Shown: one piece after another, positions 1-19,447 of the stretch | How the letters are laid out: every line of letters starts with the position of its first letter | How positions within the stretch are numbered: position 1 is the first letter of the stretch | Source of the DNA: a virus | Strand: one strand, 5' to 3' | DNA: 21,444 nucleotides | IMG/VR virus record: IMGVR_UViG_3300045935_000106 | Coordinates: 1-21,444 of that record | Translations under genes and position numbers: made by a program | Notes under the pieces: model-generated | The model's input: the letters and a program-made list of their open reading frames with translations, nothing else | Told to the model about the DNA's origin: nothing | Databases searched by the model: none

Positions 1-1277
1 AAACCTAACACCATACCGGCGAACAGTCCAGCCAGCTTGAAAAGAATAATCCCTTCTATAATTCGAAACAAAAATCCCATATGCGTGCTAAGATCAGCAA
101 TCCATTTGATTGCATCAACCATAGATGTAACCCATGCACCTATGCTTTTACCGAATTCAATAACGTTATCTATTGTTTTGGGGTCTTTCAAAAACTCTTG
201 GGTACTTTTAATTAGTTCAGTCAGGAATGGAATTGCTTTGGTCCCAACATCGATAACCAACGCCAGTAGATTATTCTTAAACAACTGAAACTGCTTACCA
301 AGACCCTGTATCACACGCTCTTGTTCGCGTATCGCTGACGTGCCGCCTTCAAATCCTACAGTTGCGTTTCTAACATTTCTATCCAGTATATCGTAACCTT
401 TGGATGCATCATCCGCTAAAGCCGTGACCAATCCAAAAATGCGCCCGCCGCCTGAAGATTGCTGGATAAAACTGGCACGTGTCTGCGCATCCATTTTAGC
501 CAGCGCATCAAGATACAGCTTCAACCCGGCTATACCATCGTTCTTTAAGATGGAAATAAACTCGTGGACAGGCTTGCCGATAGCAGGTGCAATTTTATCC
601 GCATCCGTTTGAAGATGTAAAAACACCTTCTGGAATGAAGTCCCTACAGTCTCCACTGTAAGACCAAGGTCGCGGCCTGTAGCGGCAAGTGCGGTAGCTT
701 GTGTAGCATTCAATACGGTACCGGCAGTCCCGATCCGCTGAACCATGTCAATCAGTTCTTTACCGCTTGCCGTTGAATTATTAGAAACTTCGTTCAGAAG
801 CGAACCGATCCGTTCTACTTCTGTTACATTGATTTTGAAGATGTTCAGCAAACGCGCCGCGCCCTGTGCTGCTTCTTCGGCAGTAATGCCGAGCACGGAC
901 GCCATACGTGATGCAGTTGCAGTAAATTGGAGTATGCCTTGTGACCCCGACCCGCCTAAACCCAATTGTCCGGCGATTGCCGCAATTTTGGCTAGATCAA
1001 CAGCGGTAACGTCTACTTGGCTGGATAACTCTTTCAGGCCATCACTTAATGCGCCGATTTGATCGTTCGTAAAATTCGTCGTCTTGGCGACGTTAATCAA
1101 TTCTGCCTGAAAGTCAGATGCCGATTTAATCGGAAACAGCGCCGCCGCCAATACAGAAACGAGGGACGATACTGCGCCGACCAACCGGATAATACTAGAT
1201 TCGGTTTGTTTGAAAACGCCGGATGCCTGATCCTGCGCTTTAATTAGAATATCAAGTTCAGAAGTATTAGTAGCCAT
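1..1277 (-). CDS. Tail tape measure protein, TP901 type, N-terminal part (truncated by window edge)
   Basis: This gene is open to the left edge, so about 425 N-terminal residues are visible. Tape measure proteins fill the tail tube and set its length. The start MATNTSELD, followed by an IKAQDQASG motif, is typical of the TP901 tape measure family. Long helical Ala/Leu/Val-rich stretches follow, with TAEEAAQGAARLL near residue 125 and a hydrophobic segment (LFRIIEGIILFKLAGLFAG) at the visible end. The ATG at 1277-1275 overlaps the end of the upstream chaperone frame by 11 bp, the usual arrangement behind a G/GT chaperone pair. The family call is firm; full length and C-terminal domains cannot be seen. 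Confidence 0.88.
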   Translation of the reverse strand, partial: MATNTSELDILIKAQDQASGVFKQTESSIIRLVGAVSSLVSVLAAALFPIKSASDFQAELINVAKTTNFTNDQIGALSDGLKELSSQVDVTAVDLAKIAAIAGQLGLGGSGSQGILQFTATASRMASVLGITAEEAAQGAARLLNIFKINVTEVERIGSLLNEVSNNSTASGKELIDMVQRIGTAGTVLNATQATALAATGRDLGLTVETVGTSFQKVFLHLQTDADKIAPAIGKPVHEFISILKNDGIAGLKLYLDALAKMDAQTRASFIQQSSGGGRIFGLVTALADDASKGYDILDRNVRNATVGFEGGTSAIREQERVIQGLGKQFQLFKNNLLALVIDVGTKAIPFLTELIKSTQEFLKDPKTIDNVIEFGKSIGAWVTSMVDAIKWIADLSTHMGFLFRIIEGIILFKLAGLFAGMVLG

Positions 1278-1509
1278 CTTTATCCAGTTTTAATTGATCG
1301 AGATATTCCTTGAGACCCTTACCGCTTAGTGCTATCCCGATTGAGGCTACCAAATCCGATACTACAACCTTCCGTTCAGCGAATTCCTTTCGTATCACTG
1401 CTTCAACATACAGATAGAACTTGTCTAGCTGCATGTCCAGTATTTCGTCTTCCGCAAAACCCTCCGCTTTCAAAAGTAGAATTTGATCGATCAGGATTTC
1501 GCCGTCGCT
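1267..1509 (-). CDS. Tail assembly chaperone, frameshifted C-terminal part (T-like)
   Basis: An open frame, -1 relative to the upstream chaperone gene, ends 11 bp inside the tape measure start. It encodes about 80 residues if entered by slippage at 1509-1512, beginning SDGEILIDQILL and continuing KAEGFAEDEILDMQLDKF. That Leu/acidic pattern is typical of the second chaperone of long-tailed phages. Its own first possible start is a TTG at 1473 with no Shine-Dalgarno sequence, and the frame stays open upstream into the first gene. Expression as a fused GT-like protein is therefore the better reading. The slip site is inferred; no canonical XXXYYYZ heptamer is present. Confidence 0.65.
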   Translation of the reverse strand, partial: SDGEILIDQILLLKAEGFAEDEILDMQLDKFYLYVEAVIRKEFAERKVVVSDLVASIGIALSGKGLKEYLDQLKLDKDGY

Positions 1510-1961
1510 TTTCTCTTTACCATGAACTCCGCGAATGCGGCCTTGACGAGAGGCAACACCCTTTGTATAAAAAAATCGTAATTCAATCCCAACACGTTCT
1601 GCGTCAAGACGATCATGTCATCCAAATCAAGCTCACCTACTTCCGCAAGTGTTAATGATGAAAATCGGGAGACAATGGCAAACACTTCCGGCCCCTTGTC
1701 TGAAATCAATTTCAAAAGAAAACTTACATCGCGTAGTTTGGCGCGGACTATTGCCTTTAGTGTTTCTTCGTCCTCCAGTCCGCTGTTGATTCCTGATTGT
1801 TCCCACAACATCGTAACGAACTCAACGAAAACCGCAACATCCTTGACCTTACATAGACGAATTTCGACCTCGCGGTTTTCACTTAATTCAATCGTTTTCT
1901 TGCGCATCAGTGTGTTGACGACTACAGACGCGCTCAATTCTTTTTCGATCGGTGCATTCAT
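1491..1961 (-). CDS. Tail assembly chaperone (G-like), 156 aa
   Basis: A soluble, mostly helical, acidic protein (MNAPIEKELSA at the N-terminus, ending KRKATAKS). It sits between the tail tube genes and the tape measure gene, which is the standard place for the tail assembly chaperone that coats the tape measure before tube polymerisation. ATG 1961 is chosen because ACGGAG lies 8 nt upstream; a longer reading to 2114 would overlap the previous gene and lacks such a site. Near the 3' end the codons AGA AAA GCG offer an A-AAA-G slip into the -1 frame. The role comes from position and architecture; no specific motif was recognised. Confidence 0.75.
   Translation of the reverse strand: MNAPIEKELSASVVVNTLMRKKTIELSENREVEIRLCKVKDVAVFVEFVTMLWEQSGINSGLEDEETLKAIVRAKLRDVSFLLKLISDKGPEVFAIVSRFSSLTLAEVGELDLDDMIVLTQNVLGLNYDFFIQRVLPLVKAAFAEFMVKRKATAKS
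1701..1714. repeat. Palindrome copy 1 (TGAAATCAATTTCA), inside the chaperone gene
   Basis: A perfect 14-bp copy of the window's recurring palindrome, here within coding sequence, where the minus strand reads Leu-Lys-Leu-Ile-Ser. It is one of two copies fully inside accepted genes. Confidence 0.7.
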
Positions 1962-1974
1962 GAACGGTACTCCG

Positions 1975-2229
1975 TTAAGCCTTGGTAAGGCCACCTTTAC
2001 GCCCACTCTCGGCGTCGCTGGTGCCGATGGAGGGCACATAGGGCTTCCTGCCGTTATCGACGCCTGTAGACGTTTCTGCGGCCTCCGAATTCGACACGCC
2101 AATCTGTTCGGCAAGACCCCGCTCCTTCAGTTTTACCCAGATACGCCCCGGTACTTCAAGTTCAGACCCTTTAACTACAAACTCACTGCCGATAGTGACA
2201 TCGGCCAGAGTACGTATTTGTACAGTCAT
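1975..2229 (-). CDS. Small structural-cluster protein, 84 aa, function unknown
   Basis: Starts MTVQIRTLADV at an ATG with GGAG 8 nt upstream and lies between the second tail tube gene and the chaperone gene. The N-terminal half is a plausible small beta domain (VVKGSELEVPGRIWVKL); the C-terminal half (about residues 48-84) is rich in Ser, Gly, Glu and Lys and probably disordered. The stop is 13 nt before the chaperone start, so the two are likely coupled. Position suggests a minor tail or tail-assembly role, but no family is recognised. Confidence 0.75.
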   Translation of the reverse strand: MTVQIRTLADVTIGSEFVVKGSELEVPGRIWVKLKERGLAEQIGVSNSEAAETSTGVDNGRKPYVPSIGTSDAESGRKGGLTKA

Positions 2230-2259: not shown

Positions 2260-3216
2260 TTAAGCAGCAACGTTCCACTGCCGGAAATAATTACTACCCG
2301 TCAACTGCAATGAATCGAACAAAATAGTCCCTTTCATGGAAGCCGAAGCCAGGTCTTCGTTGATCAGCGGATACCCGCTCAAAGGGTCAAACTTTGCTTT
2401 GAAGATATCCACGATCACGTGGGACCCATCCACTGTATTCAATCCTTCGAAGCGGAGATAACGTTCCGGGGCGGGAACGGTAAACACATCGACTCTACCA
2501 GTTGTCGCATAAGTGTAATCGATCAAGTACGGACGCCCTTCCTCGATGCCTACCCCCGCCGCCAGCGGCTGCGTCGGTGTAATCATACCAAACTTCGCTG
2601 CCAGGATAAAATCCACATCCGGTGTTTGGTTAATCAAGCCCATGTCTGTCCATGTCACTTGATCATCAACAACCACACCACCATTGACCGGCCACGTTGG
2701 CTGAACCGCAGGAGCCGTTTTCGTGTCACCCGCTACCGCAGTCGCCTTGTAGTAATGACTGTTCGCTACCGTCGGTATCTTGTATGCGCCAAGCACTGTT
2801 ACGGTATCCGCAACCCATGCCGTCGCCACAAGACCATCTTTAGCGGAAACAGTAACAGCAGATACGTCCGGGTAGGCAAGTGTTGCACTCTTGCTCGAAT
2901 AGAGTATAACTTCTTCGTCCACCACGGAAGCACCATTGATCGTAGTTTTGGTGCCGTACAAACCCATTGCTAGATTGTCCAGGCTCAAACTTTCCAGCTT
3001 GAACGCGAAAGTCGATTTGTTCTCTTTGTTGATCGACAAATCAATCAGCCGGTCGCCGCTTTGTGATTCTTTGTGTTCAAACACCGTCGTTGCGATGTCA
3101 ATAGTCAAATCTGGCACGTTGCCGACTTGAAACAATCCAGCAGGTTTGCCCAACAGCGTACGCGGGGCCATATACAGCGAACCTTGCCCGGAGTAGTAGT
3201 AGTTTTGAAAAGCCAT
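2260..3216 (-). CDS. Tail tube protein paralogue B with inserted domain, 318 aa
   Basis: A major tail protein of the long-tailed type, homologous to the 247-aa gene immediately upstream. Shared landmarks in order are NYYYSGQGSLY, VGNVP.LTIDIATT.FEHKES, KENK.TFAFK, SLDNLA.GLYGTK, APER.LRF.GLNT.DG, DIF.AK.DPL.GY and the C-terminal FRQWN.AA. This copy carries an extra segment at about residues 140-195 with YYKATAV, PTWPVNGG and VTWTDMG, a pattern seen in small beta modules displayed on phage virion proteins. ATG 3216 has AAGGAG upstream. Expected location is the tail tube, perhaps a minor or surface-decorated form. No sheath gene is adjacent, which fits a non-contractile tail. Confidence 0.85.
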   Translation of the reverse strand: MAFQNYYYSGQGSLYMAPRTLLGKPAGLFQVGNVPDLTIDIATTVFEHKESQSGDRLIDLSINKENKSTFAFKLESLSLDNLAMGLYGTKTTINGASVVDEEVILYSSKSATLAYPDVSAVTVSAKDGLVATAWVADTVTVLGAYKIPTVANSHYYKATAVAGDTKTAPAVQPTWPVNGGVVVDDQVTWTDMGLINQTPDVDFILAAKFGMITPTQPLAAGVGIEEGRPYLIDYTYATTGRVDVFTVPAPERYLRFEGLNTVDGSHVIVDIFKAKFDPLSGYPLINEDLASASMKGTILFDSLQLTGSNYFRQWNVAA

Positions 3217-3233
3217 GATAGTTCTCCTTCAAG

Positions 3234-3247
3234 TGAAATCAATTTCA
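3234..3247. repeat. Palindrome copy 2, between the two tail tube genes
   Basis: TGAAATCAATTTCA. It lies 17 nt upstream of the paralogue B start codon, immediately 5' of its Shine-Dalgarno sequence, and downstream of the paralogue A stop codon at 3265. Confidence 0.85.
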
Positions 3248-3264
3248 AAAGCAAACCGGGCCAA

Positions 3265-4008
3265 CTACGCTGCGATGTTCCATTGCCGGAAATACTTGCT
3301 ACCGGTGATACGCAACAGGTCGGCCAGAACCGTACCTTTCATGGAAGCCGAGGCAAGCTCGTCATTGATCAGTGCGTAACCGGTCAACGGGTCCAATTTC
3401 GCCCTGAAAATGTCAATCATGGTTTTTGTTCCATCAATCGTATTCAAACCATTAAATCGCAGCCAACGCTCAGGGGCAGTGACCGTAAAAGCGTCAAGCC
3501 TGTTCGCTTGTGCATAGTTGTACGAAACCAATACCGTGGTGTCATCCGGAATGGAGCCGCCTGTTACGCCCGCGACCGTCCCATTTTTTGGACCAATCGT
3601 GTAATCCACATTCACCACTTTGGTTGCGGCCACAACTTTGAGAACAACACTGGATACATCCGGATGATCCAGCGGTGTATTCTTATCCAAGTAAAGTTGG
3701 TGCGGTTCATCTACCACTGAACCACCCGGAATAACGGCCTTGGTTCCATACAAACCAATCGCCAAATTATCCAATGACAGGTTTTCCATTTTGAACGCAA
3801 ACGTACCTTTGTTTTCTTTGGTAATCGTCAGGTCAATACCACGCGCCCCGGATTCGGATTCCTTGTGCTCGAATATCGTGGTCGCAATGTCAATCGTCAA
3901 TTCAGGCACGTTCCCCACTCTAACAAACCCAGTAGGTACGCCCAGAATAGAGCGCTCGGCAAGGTAGAGCGAACCCTGTCCGCTGTAGTAATAGTTCTGA
4001 GTGTTCAT
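3265..4008 (-). CDS. Major tail tube protein paralogue A, 247 aa
   Basis: This is the compact member of the tail tube pair and the likelier major tube subunit. It begins MNTQNYYYSGQGSLY and ends KYFRQWNIAA, with the same core blocks as its neighbour (TIDIATTIFEHKES, KENKGTFAFK, LDNLAIGLYGTK, APERWLRFNGLNT). It lacks the inserted YYKAT...VTWTDMG domain and instead has a short variable stretch (about residues 100-150). The ATG at 4008 is chosen because AAGGAG lies 9 nt upstream and the start matches the paralogue; upstream in-frame residues overlap the previous gene. Subunits assemble as rings around the tape measure protein. Confidence 0.87.
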   Translation of the reverse strand: MNTQNYYYSGQGSLYLAERSILGVPTGFVRVGNVPELTIDIATTIFEHKESESGARGIDLTITKENKGTFAFKMENLSLDNLAIGLYGTKAVIPGGSVVDEPHQLYLDKNTPLDHPDVSSVVLKVVAATKVVNVDYTIGPKNGTVAGVTGGSIPDDTTVLVSYNYAQANRLDAFTVTAPERWLRFNGLNTIDGTKTMIDIFRAKLDPLTGYALINDELASASMKGTVLADLLRITGSKYFRQWNIAA

Positions 4009-4021
4009 GATTCCGTTCTCC

Positions 4022-4519
4022 TTACGAGTTTGAATAGTTGCCGAGGAATGGCACCGATGTTTGCCACACTTGAGAATAGAAGACCAAACCATCAACCGAC
4101 ACGGATGGTTCCGGCTTCTCTCCCATAAACCGCCACGCCCGCGTGTTCACTTTTTTGTAGCCTATCAGCTTTAACCGTACCTGATGCAGCAAGGCCATTG
4201 CACTTTGTTTATTGTCGCTTTGACCCATATTCGTGTACTGGATGGCAACGACTACCAAAAATTGAATATCAACGAATGCAGCGCCCCGCTCTCCATTCGA
4301 TTCGACAGTATTCCCTTTAGGATCGATTTGATTGCCTTTCGGCGCGGCCCCGTCATAGCCAACTCCGACAATAGGCAGATTACCCGGCTGTTCAGTAGAA
4401 AGGCGCTCCATGTCTTCCAGAGAAAAAATGGAAAATGCTTTATCGACAAAGGCAGGGACTTCTTTAACCATACCCATCAATTCGGTCTCCAACTGATCTA
4501 AGGTGCATGGTATGATCAC
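4022..4519 (-). CDS. Tail terminator / Mu gp37-like (DUF1834-type) protein, 165 aa
   Basis: The layout fits Mu gp37-like proteins: an N-terminal helix (LDQLETELMGMV), a central LPIVGVGYDG strand, FVDIQFLVVVAIQYTN, an ALLHQVRLKLIGY helix and a final strand VFYSQVWQTSVPF. Such proteins act at the tail end or head-tail interface. The start is GTG within a GTGA overlap with the preceding gene's TGA, implying translational coupling. The position, after the gpG-like gene and before the tail tube, is that of a tail terminator. The family assignment is from pattern and gene order, not a search. Confidence 0.65.
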   Translation of the reverse strand: MIIPCTLDQLETELMGMVKEVPAFVDKAFSIFSLEDMERLSTEQPGNLPIVGVGYDGAAPKGNQIDPKGNTVESNGERGAAFVDIQFLVVVAIQYTNMGQSDNKQSAMALLHQVRLKLIGYKKVNTRAWRFMGEKPEPSVSVDGLVFYSQVWQTSVPFLGNYSNS

Positions 4520-5010
4520 TTCAACCCGCCTTTCGTCAACACGTGCAACTTAATCGCGGCGGCAATCATGGTCAAATCTGACGCAGCAACACCTAAGAAA
4601 CGACGCTGTTTTACACCAATGCCCATTTGATGAAAACGCGCATAATCCCGAACAATTTCTCTATCGATGCCGATTCGCCCGCCTACCCCGGTTGACACAC
4701 CTAATGCGCCTGCGCTCAAGCCTTGCAGAATCTTAATGGAATCACGCATAGCACCCGTACGCTCGAGTATTTGCTTGCCTGCCGTGCGTGGGTCGGGTTT
4801 GCGCCCTTTTTGCGGTGGTGCTCTCGCAGGCCACAATATACCGGTCGGACTGATTTGTTTGAGAAAGCGTTCCTGATTGGCTTTAAGCATTAATTCCAAC
4901 AACACATTCTGCTTTTCGCCATTCAACACAAACTGCGTGCGTTCGCGGATGCCGCGAAGCATTGCTGCCATTTTATCTGCGCCGCGCACATAAGGCGTAT
5001 CAAAGCTCAT
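4516..5010 (-). CDS. Virion morphogenesis / tail completion protein, Mu gpG-like, 164 aa
   Basis: Carries the family signature of phage virion morphogenesis proteins: GILWPARAPPQKGRKP, then ILERTGAMRDSI, then the YARFHQMGIGVKQRRFLGV block near residues 130-150. These proteins function in head-tail joining or tail completion. The ATGA overlap with the upstream connector gene and the GTGA overlap with the downstream gene indicate a tightly coupled three-gene set. No anomalies seen. Confidence 0.8.
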   Translation of the reverse strand: MSFDTPYVRGADKMAAMLRGIRERTQFVLNGEKQNVLLELMLKANQERFLKQISPTGILWPARAPPQKGRKPDPRTAGKQILERTGAMRDSIKILQGLSAGALGVSTGVGGRIGIDREIVRDYARFHQMGIGVKQRRFLGVAASDLTMIAAAIKLHVLTKGGLK

Positions 5011-5660
5011 AGCGTCACGCTAGTAATGACACTACGGTCCGGCCATATCAAGCCCATGCGGGGACGGATGTGCGGGTTTAATAATTGTGTGACCTCCCCC
5101 ATCAGGCAGTTCTGCACGTCCTTTATAATGGGTGCCCGCCGCGAAGTAAAATGGGCGGGATTCATTTGAAGCAATCGGACCGCGGATAACACACCCGCTT
5201 GAGATAACCAGTCAGGCAAACCTTTTAAGACTTCACTTTCTTCATCCATGACGAATCCAGCAGTATACGTCACAGCGAGTACGTTGAAGCCAGTCTGTCG
5301 ATCCAATAAAAGCATCAGCGTACCTTTTTCCGCATCCAGAACATACTGACTCGGATCAACGATAGCAACATTATCCACGTTTTGCAGAACGGTATGGTCT
5401 AGTGCTTCACAAAAGACAAAAGTCACCGGATCAACAAATCCTGTACTAAGACGAAACGTAACCGGCACAAAGCCACGGCGAAAACGCGGAATGTCGTAAC
5501 TGAAAAAATCAGTGTAAGTGGCGATTGGCAGTATCGCCCCTAAACGTGCGCTAACAATAGGTGCAGTCACGTCCAAGGCACTTGCCGCGTTCAGACGTGT
5601 CCCGTCATTATCGACAACCGCCATGATTTTAACAACAGCCTGTACTGTAGCGAGACGCAT
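5007..5660 (-). CDS. Head-tail connector (gp6-like adaptor), 217 aa
   Basis: Lies between the head genes and the gpG-like gene. It contains YVLDAEKGTLMLL and VLAVTYTAGFV, the strand pair common in head-tail adaptor proteins, followed by LPDWLSQAGVLSAVRLL, a C-terminal helix typical of gp6-type connectors. The N-terminal part (residues 1-110) is longer than in compact adaptors of about 100-140 aa. ATG 5660 has no strong Shine-Dalgarno sequence. Its last codons overlap the next start as ATGA. The connector role is inferred from these features and from gene order. Confidence 0.65.
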   Translation of the reverse strand: MRLATVQAVVKIMAVVDNDGTRLNAASALDVTAPIVSARLGAILPIATYTDFFSYDIPRFRRGFVPVTFRLSTGFVDPVTFVFCEALDHTVLQNVDNVAIVDPSQYVLDAEKGTLMLLLDRQTGFNVLAVTYTAGFVMDEESEVLKGLPDWLSQAGVLSAVRLLQMNPAHFTSRRAPIIKDVQNCLMGEVTQLLNPHIRPRMGLIWPDRSVITSVTL

Positions 5661-5680
5661 CAGAAGGCACCAAGTTAGGA

Positions 5681-5989
5681 TTATGCGGCTTTTCTGGCAA
5701 TACGCTTTGCTACAACCACCGCCGGAGTCCGCGCCCGCAAACGACTCCGTTGCACAGGAATTTCCATCGTTTCCCGTACGTCAGCGTCTTCCGGGCCGTC
5801 CACTTCTGTAAACAGCGGGTATTCGTTGTTGGACGCATCCGAATTCGTGATGCTCAACACTTCTTCTGCATCGATTTCAGAAAACGAATGCACTTGCCCG
5901 CGTTCCAGCAACTTGTTGTCTGTGCGTGGTCCAACATACCGCTCACCGCCGGTCAACTTCAGCCAAACTTTCCGTTCCTCTTCTGCCAT
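5681..5989 (-). CDS. Small head-region protein, 102 aa, function unknown
   Basis: Begins MAEEERKVWLKLTGGERY at an ATG with TGGAG upstream; a longer in-frame reading to 6049 would cross the palindrome and the end of the previous gene. The N-terminal half looks like a small beta domain; the middle is very acidic (EVDGPEDADVRETME), and the C-terminus is basic (RSRLRARTP...RKAA). The gene sits between the putative decoration gene and the connector gene. An assembly or head-stabilising role is possible, but no family was recognised. Confidence 0.7.
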   Translation of the reverse strand: MAEEERKVWLKLTGGERYVGPRTDNKLLERGQVHSFSEIDAEEVLSITNSDASNNEYPLFTEVDGPEDADVRETMEIPVQRSRLRARTPAVVVAKRIARKAA

Positions 5990-6004
5990 GATTGTCTCCA
6001 AATG

Positions 6005-6018
6005 TGAAATTGATTTCA
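6005..6018. repeat. Palindrome copy 3, between the decoration-like and 102-aa genes
   Basis: TGAAATTGATTTCA, 15 nt upstream of the start at 5989 and 5' of its GGAG. The stop codon of the previous gene is at 6031. Confidence 0.85.
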
Positions 6019-6030
6019 AACGTACCGCAC

Positions 6031-6981
6031 TTAGTGCTTGTTGTACCACACCAACAAAACTTGATTTGTCGCCCCGGTCGATTTGATTCCGCCGGTTACA
6101 GTACCGCCCGCCAGCAACGCACCTGACAACGTAATGCCTGCCCCGACCCTTACCAAATCGATATCGTTAGCAGTATCGCCTTCATCTGGCGTGATGGTGA
6201 CAACAGCAAGTGCGGCGGATGCCAACACCTTGAGCGTACCGTGTGTAGCGTCGTACGCGTTGATCACGTCGGCAATCACTGCCGCCTGTTCCGTATTCGT
6301 ACCGACAACCAAAAAGTCCTGATCGGTAACCGGGTCAGCTTTGCCAGTGAATAAAACACCGTTGATAGAAAACGTATCGTTTACTGCGACAGCGGCGGCA
6401 GTCAATGTAGTGATTGCCGTACCTGAACTCCCCGCCACAAGGCGTACTGCCGTGCCTAGCGTAGTTACAACACCGCCAACGCCGGATATCGTCGCCCGGA
6501 GTGTTACAACATTGACCAAAGGAGTCGCTGTCATTTTCGATCCACTCAACCGTTGCGATTCCCTGCCGTTAATGGCGGCGGCGAGATTCGCGGCGGTATC
6601 AGTATCTGACAGGCCGAGATAGAATTTACGGTAATCGAAAGCCGCCTTGGTCGCGGTATTAGCCAGCGCGGTAAATGTGTAACCATCGATGGTTACGGTA
6701 TTGCCTGCAACAAGACCAACAACGGTAATGGTAGCCCCTGCAACCGTGTCAGCAATGGTGATGGTATTGGTGATATCCGTCAACACCCCAGCATTGTTAT
6801 TCATCGCAAATGCAACAGTATCCTCCTGGCGTATCGCAGCCAGATTGATCTTAGTGTTAGCCGCCGCGCCAGCGAGCAAGCTAAACGTAAGCCCTTGCAA
6901 TTCCGTCAGGGCCGCTACGTCTTCGCTTGAGCCATCAAGCCCATAGTATTCGCGCCCGCCCCCAGTTATTGCTTGCAGCAT
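6031..6981 (-). CDS. Putative head decoration protein with two internal repeats, 316 aa
   Basis: Directly downstream of the major capsid gene. The protein is Ala/Thr/Val/Gly-rich and beta-rich. It contains two related units: the first has GNTVTIDGYTFTA with DTAANLAAAIN (about residues 95-145), the second NDTFSINGVLFTG with AAVIADVIN (about residues 205-245). Each is followed by a VVTL or VVTI strand and a Gly-rich turn. Such INGxxFT...TAANLAxAIN units occur in several phage virion proteins. ATG 6981 has AAGGAG upstream. Position after the capsid gene suggests a capsid surface or decoration role; this is inference. Confidence 0.65.
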   Translation of the reverse strand: MLQAITGGGREYYGLDGSSEDVAALTELQGLTFSLLAGAAANTKINLAAIRQEDTVAFAMNNNAGVLTDITNTITIADTVAGATITVVGLVAGNTVTIDGYTFTALANTATKAAFDYRKFYLGLSDTDTAANLAAAINGRESQRLSGSKMTATPLVNVVTLRATISGVGGVVTTLGTAVRLVAGSSGTAITTLTAAAVAVNDTFSINGVLFTGKADPVTDQDFLVVGTNTEQAAVIADVINAYDATHGTLKVLASAALAVVTITPDEGDTANDIDLVRVGAGITLSGALLAGGTVTGGIKSTGATNQVLLVWYNKH

Positions 6982-13295: not shown

Positions 13296-13553
13296 TCAGA
13301 GTAGTTTAATAATTGCAGCAAGCACGCCTACGGCAAGTACAGTCATGCCGCCTAATTTGATTACCAGACGTAACTCCATTGCGGCCATATCCGATTTAAG
13401 CTCTTTACGCAAATCATCTAAATCACGTCTAGTTGTAAGCTGAACCGTCGCATCCCTAGCTGCCTCCACCATAGTCTCTGCTTGACTAGGCGTAAAACCA
13501 GCCGACAACAAACGTTTCACAATCTGATGTGAATCAAACCATATTGCAGACAT
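13296..13553 (-). CDS. DUF1640-like coiled-coil membrane protein A, 85 aa
   Basis: Architecture: an N-terminal helix-turn (WFDSHQIVKRLLSAGFTPSQAE), then TTRRDLDDLRKELKSDMAAME as coiled coil, then LRLVIKLGG, and a C-terminal membrane segment (MTVLAVGVLAAIIKLL). This matches the small bacterial and phage DUF1640/CCDC90-like proteins. ATG 13553 is chosen for GGGGAGG upstream; the longer frame to 13607 runs into the previous gene. Three shorter relatives lie within 6 kb. The role is unknown; a membrane-associated coiled-coil oligomer is expected. Confidence 0.78.
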   Translation of the reverse strand: MSAIWFDSHQIVKRLLSAGFTPSQAETMVEAARDATVQLTTRRDLDDLRKELKSDMAAMELRLVIKLGGMTVLAVGVLAAIIKLL

Positions 13554-13566
13554 TGCCAGTCCTCCC

Positions 13567-14559
13567 CTAAAAAATACCCTTGACTGATACACGACGTTCC
13601 GAATCATCTACAGATACGGATACCACGCCTTTTAGTTTTGATGCAGCCTGCGCAACTTCATCCGGATTGATTAATGATGACGGTATGAAATCAATTTCAA
13701 AAGTATTGTCCGTCCATCGGTATGCATGACCTTTATTCCAGCCCGCCGATTCGTAGGCGCGGACGATAGACAATCGATGGATACCCAACGTAGTTAAAAT
13801 ACCATCATACAGCGTGCCAACCCGTTTGAATTTCTTGACCCAATCTTCTGTCAAGGTCGGACAGTTCTTGTGCCCTTCGGTCAAGGCTTCCGTACTGTAG
13901 AGGAAATCAGAAAGCATCGTAAACCGGCTTGTTCGGATATGATGCACTTGTCTAACCCCGCCGCCATGATACGACGGATGTCCGCCGCCGCGCCAGTTGT
14001 GTTCCAGACGGTGTGTACGAAAGAACGCTTCACGGTTTTGTGGAATGGTTGTGAATTTCGGCTTGGCTTTATACACGCCCTCGTATCGATTTTCGTAAAA
14101 CGCTTTACGCGGGCGGTCACTGTTTATCTCTGCTGCCTTCGTCCCAACACAGATAAAAGGTGACTCAGAGTAAGTGATGGTGCGATTCATCGGAAACTCT
14201 TCATCAATCGCCCGCGCAATCGTGATGGGAGAAATATCCAGCGCATCCAAGTTATGGACGACGATATCACATGCGGCCCCGTTGGACCATTGATGCAAAG
14301 AAGTGGCATCCGGATTCGGATAATTTCCATGCAGTTTCCCGGCGGCGCTATCACCGACATAACCGAAAGAAATGGAAATAGGGGAAGTTTGCACAATAGG
14401 CTCCAACACGGTTTCGGCCAAGCACACGCCTTCTACAATCTTGATTCCTGTGGGATCATCGAAAACGTTCGGGATACCGCGAACATAAAAAGAATGTCCT
14501 CCGCACAAATCTGATAATAAAAAATTTTCACTTAATCGTACCGATGTAGGATCAACCAT
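13567..14559 (-). CDS. Putative M15-like peptidase (endolysin candidate), 330 aa
   Basis: The N-terminal half resembles phage M15-family D-Ala-D-Ala peptidases: LSENFLLSDL, EGVCLAETVLEPIV, SFGYVGD and SLHQWSNGAACDIV. In the last, the spacing of His, Gly-Ala and Asp recalls the SxHxxGxAxD zinc motif but with two extra residues. The second half has a similar pattern (TLYDGILTTLGIHRLSIV, WNKGHAYRW, FEIDFIP), suggesting a diverged duplicate domain. HPSYHGGGVRQVHHIRTSRF between them offers more His ligands. Close to several small membrane proteins, so lysis is plausible. No signal peptide. The start shares a base with the upstream stop (TGATG). Family call is tentative. Confidence 0.5.
   Translation of the reverse strand: MVDPTSVRLSENFLLSDLCGGHSFYVRGIPNVFDDPTGIKIVEGVCLAETVLEPIVQTSPISISFGYVGDSAAGKLHGNYPNPDATSLHQWSNGAACDIVVHNLDALDISPITIARAIDEEFPMNRTITYSESPFICVGTKAAEINSDRPRKAFYENRYEGVYKAKPKFTTIPQNREAFFRTHRLEHNWRGGGHPSYHGGGVRQVHHIRTSRFTMLSDFLYSTEALTEGHKNCPTLTEDWVKKFKRVGTLYDGILTTLGIHRLSIVRAYESAGWNKGHAYRWTDNTFEIDFIPSSLINPDEVAQAASKLKGVVSVSVDDSERRVSVKGIF
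13686..13699. repeat. Palindrome copy 7, inside the M15-like gene
   Basis: TGAAATCAATTTCA within coding sequence; the minus strand reads Phe-Glu-Ile-Asp-Phe. One of the two copies fully inside accepted genes. Confidence 0.7.
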
Positions 14560-18113: not shown

Positions 18114-18127
18114 TGAAATCAATTTCA
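18114..18127. repeat. Palindrome copy 10, between DUF1640-like C and the 189-aa gene
   Basis: TGAAATCAATTTCA. Its TGA on the minus strand is the stop codon of the upstream gene (CAT TGA AAT), and it ends 20 nt before the next start. Confidence 0.88.
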
Positions 18128-18358
18128 ATGCATCCAGCGCAATGCACCTAGAATAGTTACAGTACACGCAATGACTGTACCACCAAGTTTGATAATTAAC
18201 TCTTGTTTCAGGATTACTAAATCCTCCTTGGTGGTAAGTCTATTTTGTGCATCCGTAATGACTTGCACTGCGGTATTCGCTTGCAGTTCTGAAAAACCCG
18301 CCTCACGCAATCGGCGTGACGCATCCAGAGTGTCAAAGGTAACGGTAATACTTGCCAT
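18125..18358 (-). CDS. DUF1640-like coiled-coil membrane protein C, 77 aa
   Basis: MASITVTFDTLDASRRLREA then GFSELQANTAV, a TTKEDLVILKQEL coiled coil, IIKLGG and a C-terminal hydrophobic segment (TVIACTVTILGALRWMH). Same layout as proteins A and D; the last helix shares IKLG...VIAC...LRW.H with D. GGGGAGG lies upstream of ATG 18358, and an extended -10 promoter precedes it. The stop codon lies in the palindrome. Likely a membrane-anchored oligomer, role unknown. Confidence 0.77.
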   Translation of the reverse strand: MASITVTFDTLDASRRLREAGFSELQANTAVQVITDAQNRLTTKEDLVILKQELIIKLGGTVIACTVTILGALRWMH

Positions 18359-18403
18359 CACATCCTCCCCTATACAACAAACAAAAGTTCTTACGTACCC
18401 AAT

Positions 18404-18432
18404 AGTATACCATAAAAGACAAAGAAACACAA
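18404..18432 (-). promoter_or_regulatory. Extended -10 promoter upstream of DUF1640-like C
   Basis: Minus strand TTGTGT, 17-nt spacer, TATACT preceded by TGG (extended -10). The 11-mer TATGGTATACT is identical in the promoter at 20677-20705. Confidence 0.6.
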
Positions 18433-18441
18433 GCATTATTT

Positions 18442-19196: not shown

Positions 19197-19210
19197 TGAA
19201 ATTAATTTCA
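19197..19210. repeat. Palindrome copy 11, between DUF1640-like D and the 117-aa gene
   Basis: TGAAATTAATTTCA, the only copy with a TA centre. Its TGA is the stop codon of the upstream gene, and it ends 16 nt before the next start. Confidence 0.88.
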
Positions 19211-19447
19211 ATGCGGCCAACGTAATAATACAAAAAGAATGGCATTACAGGCAATAACGATTGATCCAAGCTTAATAACTAGCTCATGCCTCAGTAGTTG
19301 TAATTCCGCTTTCAAGTCTTTCTTCGTTACTAGCTCATCCTGGGCATCAACCATAGCTCGCACAAACGCTACTGCTTGTTTTTCAGTAAAACCTTCTTGT
19401 TCTAATTTTTTAGCAGTTTCCAAGGTATTAAAAACAGTTGCAGCCAT
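19208..19447 (-). CDS. DUF1640-like coiled-coil membrane protein D, 79 aa
   Basis: MAATVFNTLETAKKLEQEGF then TEKQAVAFVRAMVDAQDEL, a coiled coil (TKKDLKAELQLLRHELVIKL) and a membrane segment GSIVIACNAILFVLLRWPH. It is the closest relative of protein C; both end LRW.H at a palindrome-borne stop. AAGGAG lies immediately after palindrome copy 12 and before ATG 19447. Function unknown. Confidence 0.77.
   Translation of the reverse strand: MAATVFNTLETAKKLEQEGFTEKQAVAFVRAMVDAQDELVTKKDLKAELQLLRHELVIKLGSIVIACNAILFVLLRWPH

Follow-up and report, generated by a model that had tools for sequence, protein, structure and literature searches.

The window, by which we mean the whole stretch of DNA analysed here, comprises positions 1-21,444 of the 21,444-base virus record IMGVR_UViG_3300045935_000106, a genome fragment whose structural genes lie on the minus strand. 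Two of these genes, arranged in tandem, encode major tail (tube) proteins of different length, P0002 (short) and P0001 (long). The order around them is terminator-like gene, P0002, P0001, tail chaperones and tape measure (Table 1), which places the tube genes between the terminator and neck on one side and the chaperones and tape measure on the other, where a major tail protein of the phrog_807 type is expected. Pseudomonas phage SM1 has the same order of neck, terminator, tube, chaperones and tape measure, with one tube gene compared to the two of the window. Each of the two genes possesses its own ATG with an AAGGAG a few bases before it. As both are encoded on the minus strand, the long gene is the second of the pair in the order of transcription, in agreement with the earlier note on this DNA, which gave no strand.

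Table 1 Features of the tube locus and its surroundings (window positions).
Feature	Position	Strand	Basis
Tape measure protein, truncated by the window end	3..1277	-	PF10145 6.2e-19; phrog_28 4.8e-42
Tail assembly chaperone, downstream neighbour	1491..2114	-	phrog_1442 2e-4; start codon unsure
P0001, the long major tail (tube) protein; 318 aa and a stop codon	2260..3216	-	open reading frame
Decoration domain of P0001, residues 90-242, insert included	2491..2949	-	alignment A2 to JBD30 88-175
Inserted module of about 63 aa, P0001 residues 131-193, inside the decoration domain	2638..2826	-	profile common to L025, L004 and three Cy-LDV1 copies
Shine-Dalgarno-like AAGGAG of the P0001 gene	3224..3229	-	sequence
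Intergenic palindrome TGAAATCAATTTCA, P0001/P0002 gap	3234..3247	.	one of 14 exact window copies
P0002, the short major tail (tube) protein; 247 aa and a stop codon	3265..4008	-	ATG at 4008
Decoration domain of P0002, residues 90-171	3496..3741	-	alignment A2 to JBD30
Shine-Dalgarno-like AAGGAG of the P0002 gene	4018..4023	-	sequence
Tail terminator gene, upstream neighbour of the tube pair	4022..4519	-	PF23840 2.5e-5, 24.6 bits, under the cut-off of 27
Palindrome TGAAATYRATTTCA, all window positions	1701, 3234, 6005, 6996, 10211, 12307, 13686, 15546, 16730, 18114, 19197, 19461, 20032, 20721

Elsewhere in the window, a 330-aa protein (13567-14559), whose gene overlaps the next one, matches the phrog_894 endolysin (4.9e-19). 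Three small proteins (13296-13607, 18125-18436 and 19208-19447) match phrog_17872, the first of them also matching the CCDC90-like PF07798 below the family cut-off.

Both tube reading frames are intact, and both proteins match phrog_807, 'major tail protein with Ig-like domain', as whole proteins (P0001 2.5e-55, P0002 5.4e-65). BLASTP aligned the two paralogues over their N-terminal part (3e-57) and their C-terminal part (6e-43). The cores are identical at 123 of 172 columns (72%), while the decoration domains, once the insert is removed, share 25 of 67. The claim of tandem tube paralogues with a common core is thereby borne out; the profile and BLASTP matches rule out chance or artefact as the source of the likeness, and the observation of a duplicated tube is far beyond chance. 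P0001 exceeds P0002 by 71 residues, of which about 63 form a recognisable module, and the motifs YYKAT, PTWP and VTWTDMG, which had drawn attention to the extra residues, all lie inside it.

By sequence, both paralogues match the tail protein of phage JBD30 (P0002 1.8e-14, P0001 5.5e-18), and the YSD1_22 and Chi tubes over the N-terminal part. AlphaFold models of P0002 and P0001 had a mean pLDDT of 92.5 and 83.1, respectively, and JBD30 was the best Foldseek match of both (2.1e-19 and 6.0e-19). Superposed on JBD30 (8rk3), the P0002 model gave a Z of 18.8 and an rmsd of 4.5 over 237 aligned residues, and the P0001 model a Z of 17.8 and an rmsd of 4.1 over 242. In the published description of the JBD30 tube protein, residues 8-41, 62-73 and 184-256 make up the core and residues 42-62 the hinge loop, while the decoration domain, at 88-175, has an Ig-like fold and sticks out from the disc (PMC11445458). 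The β-sandwich core, the hinge loop, the helix and the decoration domain of JBD30 gp44 map one to one onto both paralogues, and core, hinge loop and decoration domain were matched to it in both models.

The insertion point of P0001 falls between JBD30 residues of about 127 and 161, inside the decoration domain. The P0001 model has core strands of high confidence, and its insert comes after the strand at residues 118-125, the insert's own pLDDT being low, at about 45-60. Structure prediction, which the earlier note had proposed for both proteins, thus delivered a tube fold for each and left the insert's own fold and pose at low confidence. The outward-facing placement that the note had suggested is supported by homology, as the insert lies inside the outward decoration domain of JBD30 and outside the core that forms the lumen, and folding of the insert into the lumen is therefore unlikely.

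The module is found in a second tube. A related contig, L025, encodes a tube of 310 aa that carries the module in the loop used by P0001; its gene lies between terminator-like and chaperone-like genes, and the two inserts are identical at 33 of 61 positions. No second tube is present across the 9.6 kb of L025, so that its only visible tube is the long form, and the module is thus compatible with tube building. In a tree calculated without the insert columns, L025 groups with L020, L024 and L026, all of which lack the module, and a P0001+L025 clade, corresponding to a single inherited origin of the long forms, was rejected (p-AU 0.0055, 29-row tree), with losses elsewhere being possible. Hence the module either moved or had several origins, or else it was lost on repeated occasions. 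We also considered whether P0001 and L025 had exchanged their entire decoration domain as a mosaic; their identity in this domain, 32 of 78, is near that of other relatives (30/69 and 29/69) and does not support such an exchange.

Further copies of the module occur three times in a tail-region protein of Cy-LDV1, once in an adaptor-like protein of L004, in a large fibre-like protein of L098 and in smaller proteins of L099 and L100, where the functions given for L004 and L098-L100 are our reading of the sequences and not profile results. Weak matches were obtained with the P-HM2 fibre (E 2) and among capsid, tail and decoration proteins of other phages (best E 0.009). The module also resembles the C-terminal part of phrog_20658, 'head decoration' (L025 copy 4.7e-13, P0001 copy 0.017), a family of head-decoration proteins, whereas the P0001 module is in a tail tube. 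The suggestion that the extra residues resemble small modules of phage surface proteins therefore held, given their recurrence in adaptor-like, fibre and tail-region proteins of several phage virions.

The P0001 insert matched no Pfam family and is not assigned to a Pfam domain. One Cy-LDV1 copy resembles CBM_5_12 (PF02839; 7e-4, 20 bits against a cut-off of 26.2), the L025 copy reaching 7.9 bits; none of these copies attains the curated cut-off, and a search of the window itself returned no CBM_5_12 match at E 10 (0/1). Because the likeness is weak and below the family cut-off, we did not file the module under CBM_5_12, although it may work like a carbohydrate-binding module.

P0001 and P0002 were recovered as sisters in a tree of 81 tube proteins (SH-aLRT 99) and in the tree of 29 rows, a subset chosen by hand from the window's neighbourhood (support 100/99). 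The paralogues could also be drawn together on a tree if their tandem cores had undergone gene conversion. Synonymous sites of the cores are saturated (pS 0.76-0.77) while pN is low (0.20-0.21), so the pair is old and both cores are under purifying selection. Alignment A7 has 57 other rows, and of the 31 columns that are at least 90% conserved among these, 31 are retained by P0001 and 30 by P0002. The pair therefore appears not to be recent, with no decay visible in either copy.

Taken together, we propose that the tube gene was duplicated in tandem in the lineage of this phage, and that both copies would have been retained as working subunits that co-assemble in one tube, as mixed rings or as separate stretches. 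In P0001, one loop of the outward-facing, Ig-like decoration domain would hold a small module of the virion-surface kind, and the long form would thereby line the tail with modules that bind the host surface weakly, probably through carbohydrate. We give this reading a probability of roughly 0.7. The ring-forming core and the hinge loop are common to both subunits, which makes co-assembly most likely; from the sequences we likewise infer that the two subunits would share one virion at some ratio and that the module would bind.

Our attention then turns to the gap between the genes. The palindrome TGAAATYRATTTCA has 14 exact copies in the window, mostly at gene junctions, where the Shine-Dalgarno and start of the following gene on the minus strand come directly after it. 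Ten of the 14 are followed 13-22 bases downstream on the coding strand by a Shine-Dalgarno-like stretch and a start codon; one of these ten, at 1701, is probably spurious and falls within a chaperone gene. None of the 14 window copies is followed by such a pair on the opposite strand. In five of the 14, the first TGA of the palindrome ends an upstream frame of at least 75 codons. The palindrome was found in 12 of the 16 records searched, window included (11 of the 15 others), and a reversed control pattern in none of the 16. Its placement in four related contigs that we read was less regular than in the window, and in a relative, L054, a copy directly follows the single tube gene. The element may be an operator, may be linked to starts or may mark junctions at which genes are gained, and its presence between the genes could mean differing expression of the two copies rather than joint expression.

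Such differing expression bears on the possibility that the copies are used separately, with the long form confined to a special zone (for instance the rings at the neck or at the tip), or with a minor structural role for one copy, and without random mixing. The module is indeed found on one copy only, the palindrome precedes the long gene alone, and a Shine-Dalgarno for each gene would allow separate dosage. The conserved core residues, on the other hand, are kept in both copies with no visible loss at the ring interface, and the long form is the only visible tube of L025, and we consider separate use rather unlikely. An unlikely and more speculative extension of a two-gene heteromeric tube is that the palindrome TGAAATYRATTTCA sets the dosage of the subunits and that modules move between tube lineages by way of one decoration-domain loop; if true, tails could be re-decorated without touching the channel.

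We then looked at how common two tubes are. All 109 phage records matching P0002 at E 1e-5 show one place, and none of the 109 contains a second full phrog_807-type tube; a looser tblastn (E up to 1) gave 283 places in 281 records. Among related viral contigs, a second full tube of this type was found in none of 86 distinct ones, comprising the best 80 of 140 confirmed loci, 70 of which have at least 1 kb on each side of the tube, and six more. The latter come from a further search that returned 33 loci, six of them on contigs new to the 80 and each with one tube. Scans of viral contigs with single proteins gave none for P0002 and two for P0001, and the A4 scan of genome contigs gave no match.

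This rarity would fit a transient redundancy or alternation, in which either copy suffices and one is used at a time or is being lost, since a state seen in none of the 86 contigs and 109 records looks short-lived or rare. The saturated pS and low pN of both cores point instead to long joint retention under constraint, and both frames are intact, which leaves redundancy improbable. A role of the second copy as decoy, or as escape variant, in the face of a tube-sensing defence such as DSR2, which binds and senses a phage tail tube protein, is very improbable: related folds of both models include the DSR2-bound SPR tail tubes 8ygc, 8ygo and 8xff, but the paralogues differ mainly in the decoration domain and not in the core.

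Two further loci deserve description. L005, which was found separately and left out of the 86 contigs, has a 177-aa tube-like frame (4281-4814, 79.7 bits) upstream of its normal tube, in which the hinge-loop motif precedes the YFSGQG motif, as if rearranged. L065 encodes a single phrog_807-type tube (4977-6047) with about 100 extra C-terminal residues matching the phrog_476 major tail protein (1.3e-4), an extension that, judged from its sequence, would be another route to a decorated tube.

The preferred reading, a duplicated tube gene whose two products co-assemble, can be set beside known systems. Among the closest are the siphophage major tail proteins JBD30 gp44 and the YSD1_22 and Chi tubes, all of them phrog_807-like. 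A single gene of this kind was seen in JBD30, and it lacks an insert of the P0001 type; the YSD1_22 tube is described as bearing other extra domains (PMC8718954). According to the same account, the SPP1 tail is built from gp17.1 and a longer gp17.1* made by frameshift, at 3:1, and the extra outward domain of gp17.1* is dispensable and has been proposed to contact cell-wall carbohydrate (PMC8718954). Lactococcal phages of the 936 group are described as extending the major tail protein (MTP) by frameshift to MTP-TpeX, with a carbohydrate-binding module, and TpeX bound host cells (PMC6669499). As in the window, only part of the tube subunits would then bear a module, although that of P0001 resembles a carbohydrate-binding module only weakly. 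SPP1 uses one gene, a frameshift and a C-terminal FN3 domain, and the 936 group, as described in that source, a frameshift after the adhesin domain, a BppA-like module and a Gram-positive host, whereas the window has two genes and an internal insert; P0001 and P0002 are separate genes, each with its own start signals, and not products of a frameshift of the SPP1 or 936 type.

Microbacterium phage Camille (MH153800; L144 10906-14404) contains three tandem tube paralogues, gp17, gp19 and gp20 (286, 410 and 255 aa), near-adjacent between the terminator and the tape measure, gp19 and gp20 being 48% and 42% identical to gp17. They belong to phrog_2645, a family other than the phrog_807 of the window; gp19 is longer beyond the shared part, and no P0001-type insert was identified in Camille. 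Its relative Damascus is described as having two major tail proteins (PMC11080557). Tandem tube paralogues, as in Camille, and plain and decorated tube forms made by frameshift, as in SPP1 and the 936 group, are thus already known, and the window departs from them in its protein family, in its use of gene duplication together with an insert inside the decoration domain, and in the type of module. That two tubes which are not sisters bear this module in one and the same loop suggests that the outer face of the tube has a site where insertions are tolerated; such a site may help in studying how phages alter surface adhesion without altering the channel, and gene duplication is a suggested route to the plain and decorated tube subunits that SPP1 and the 936 phages reach by frameshift.
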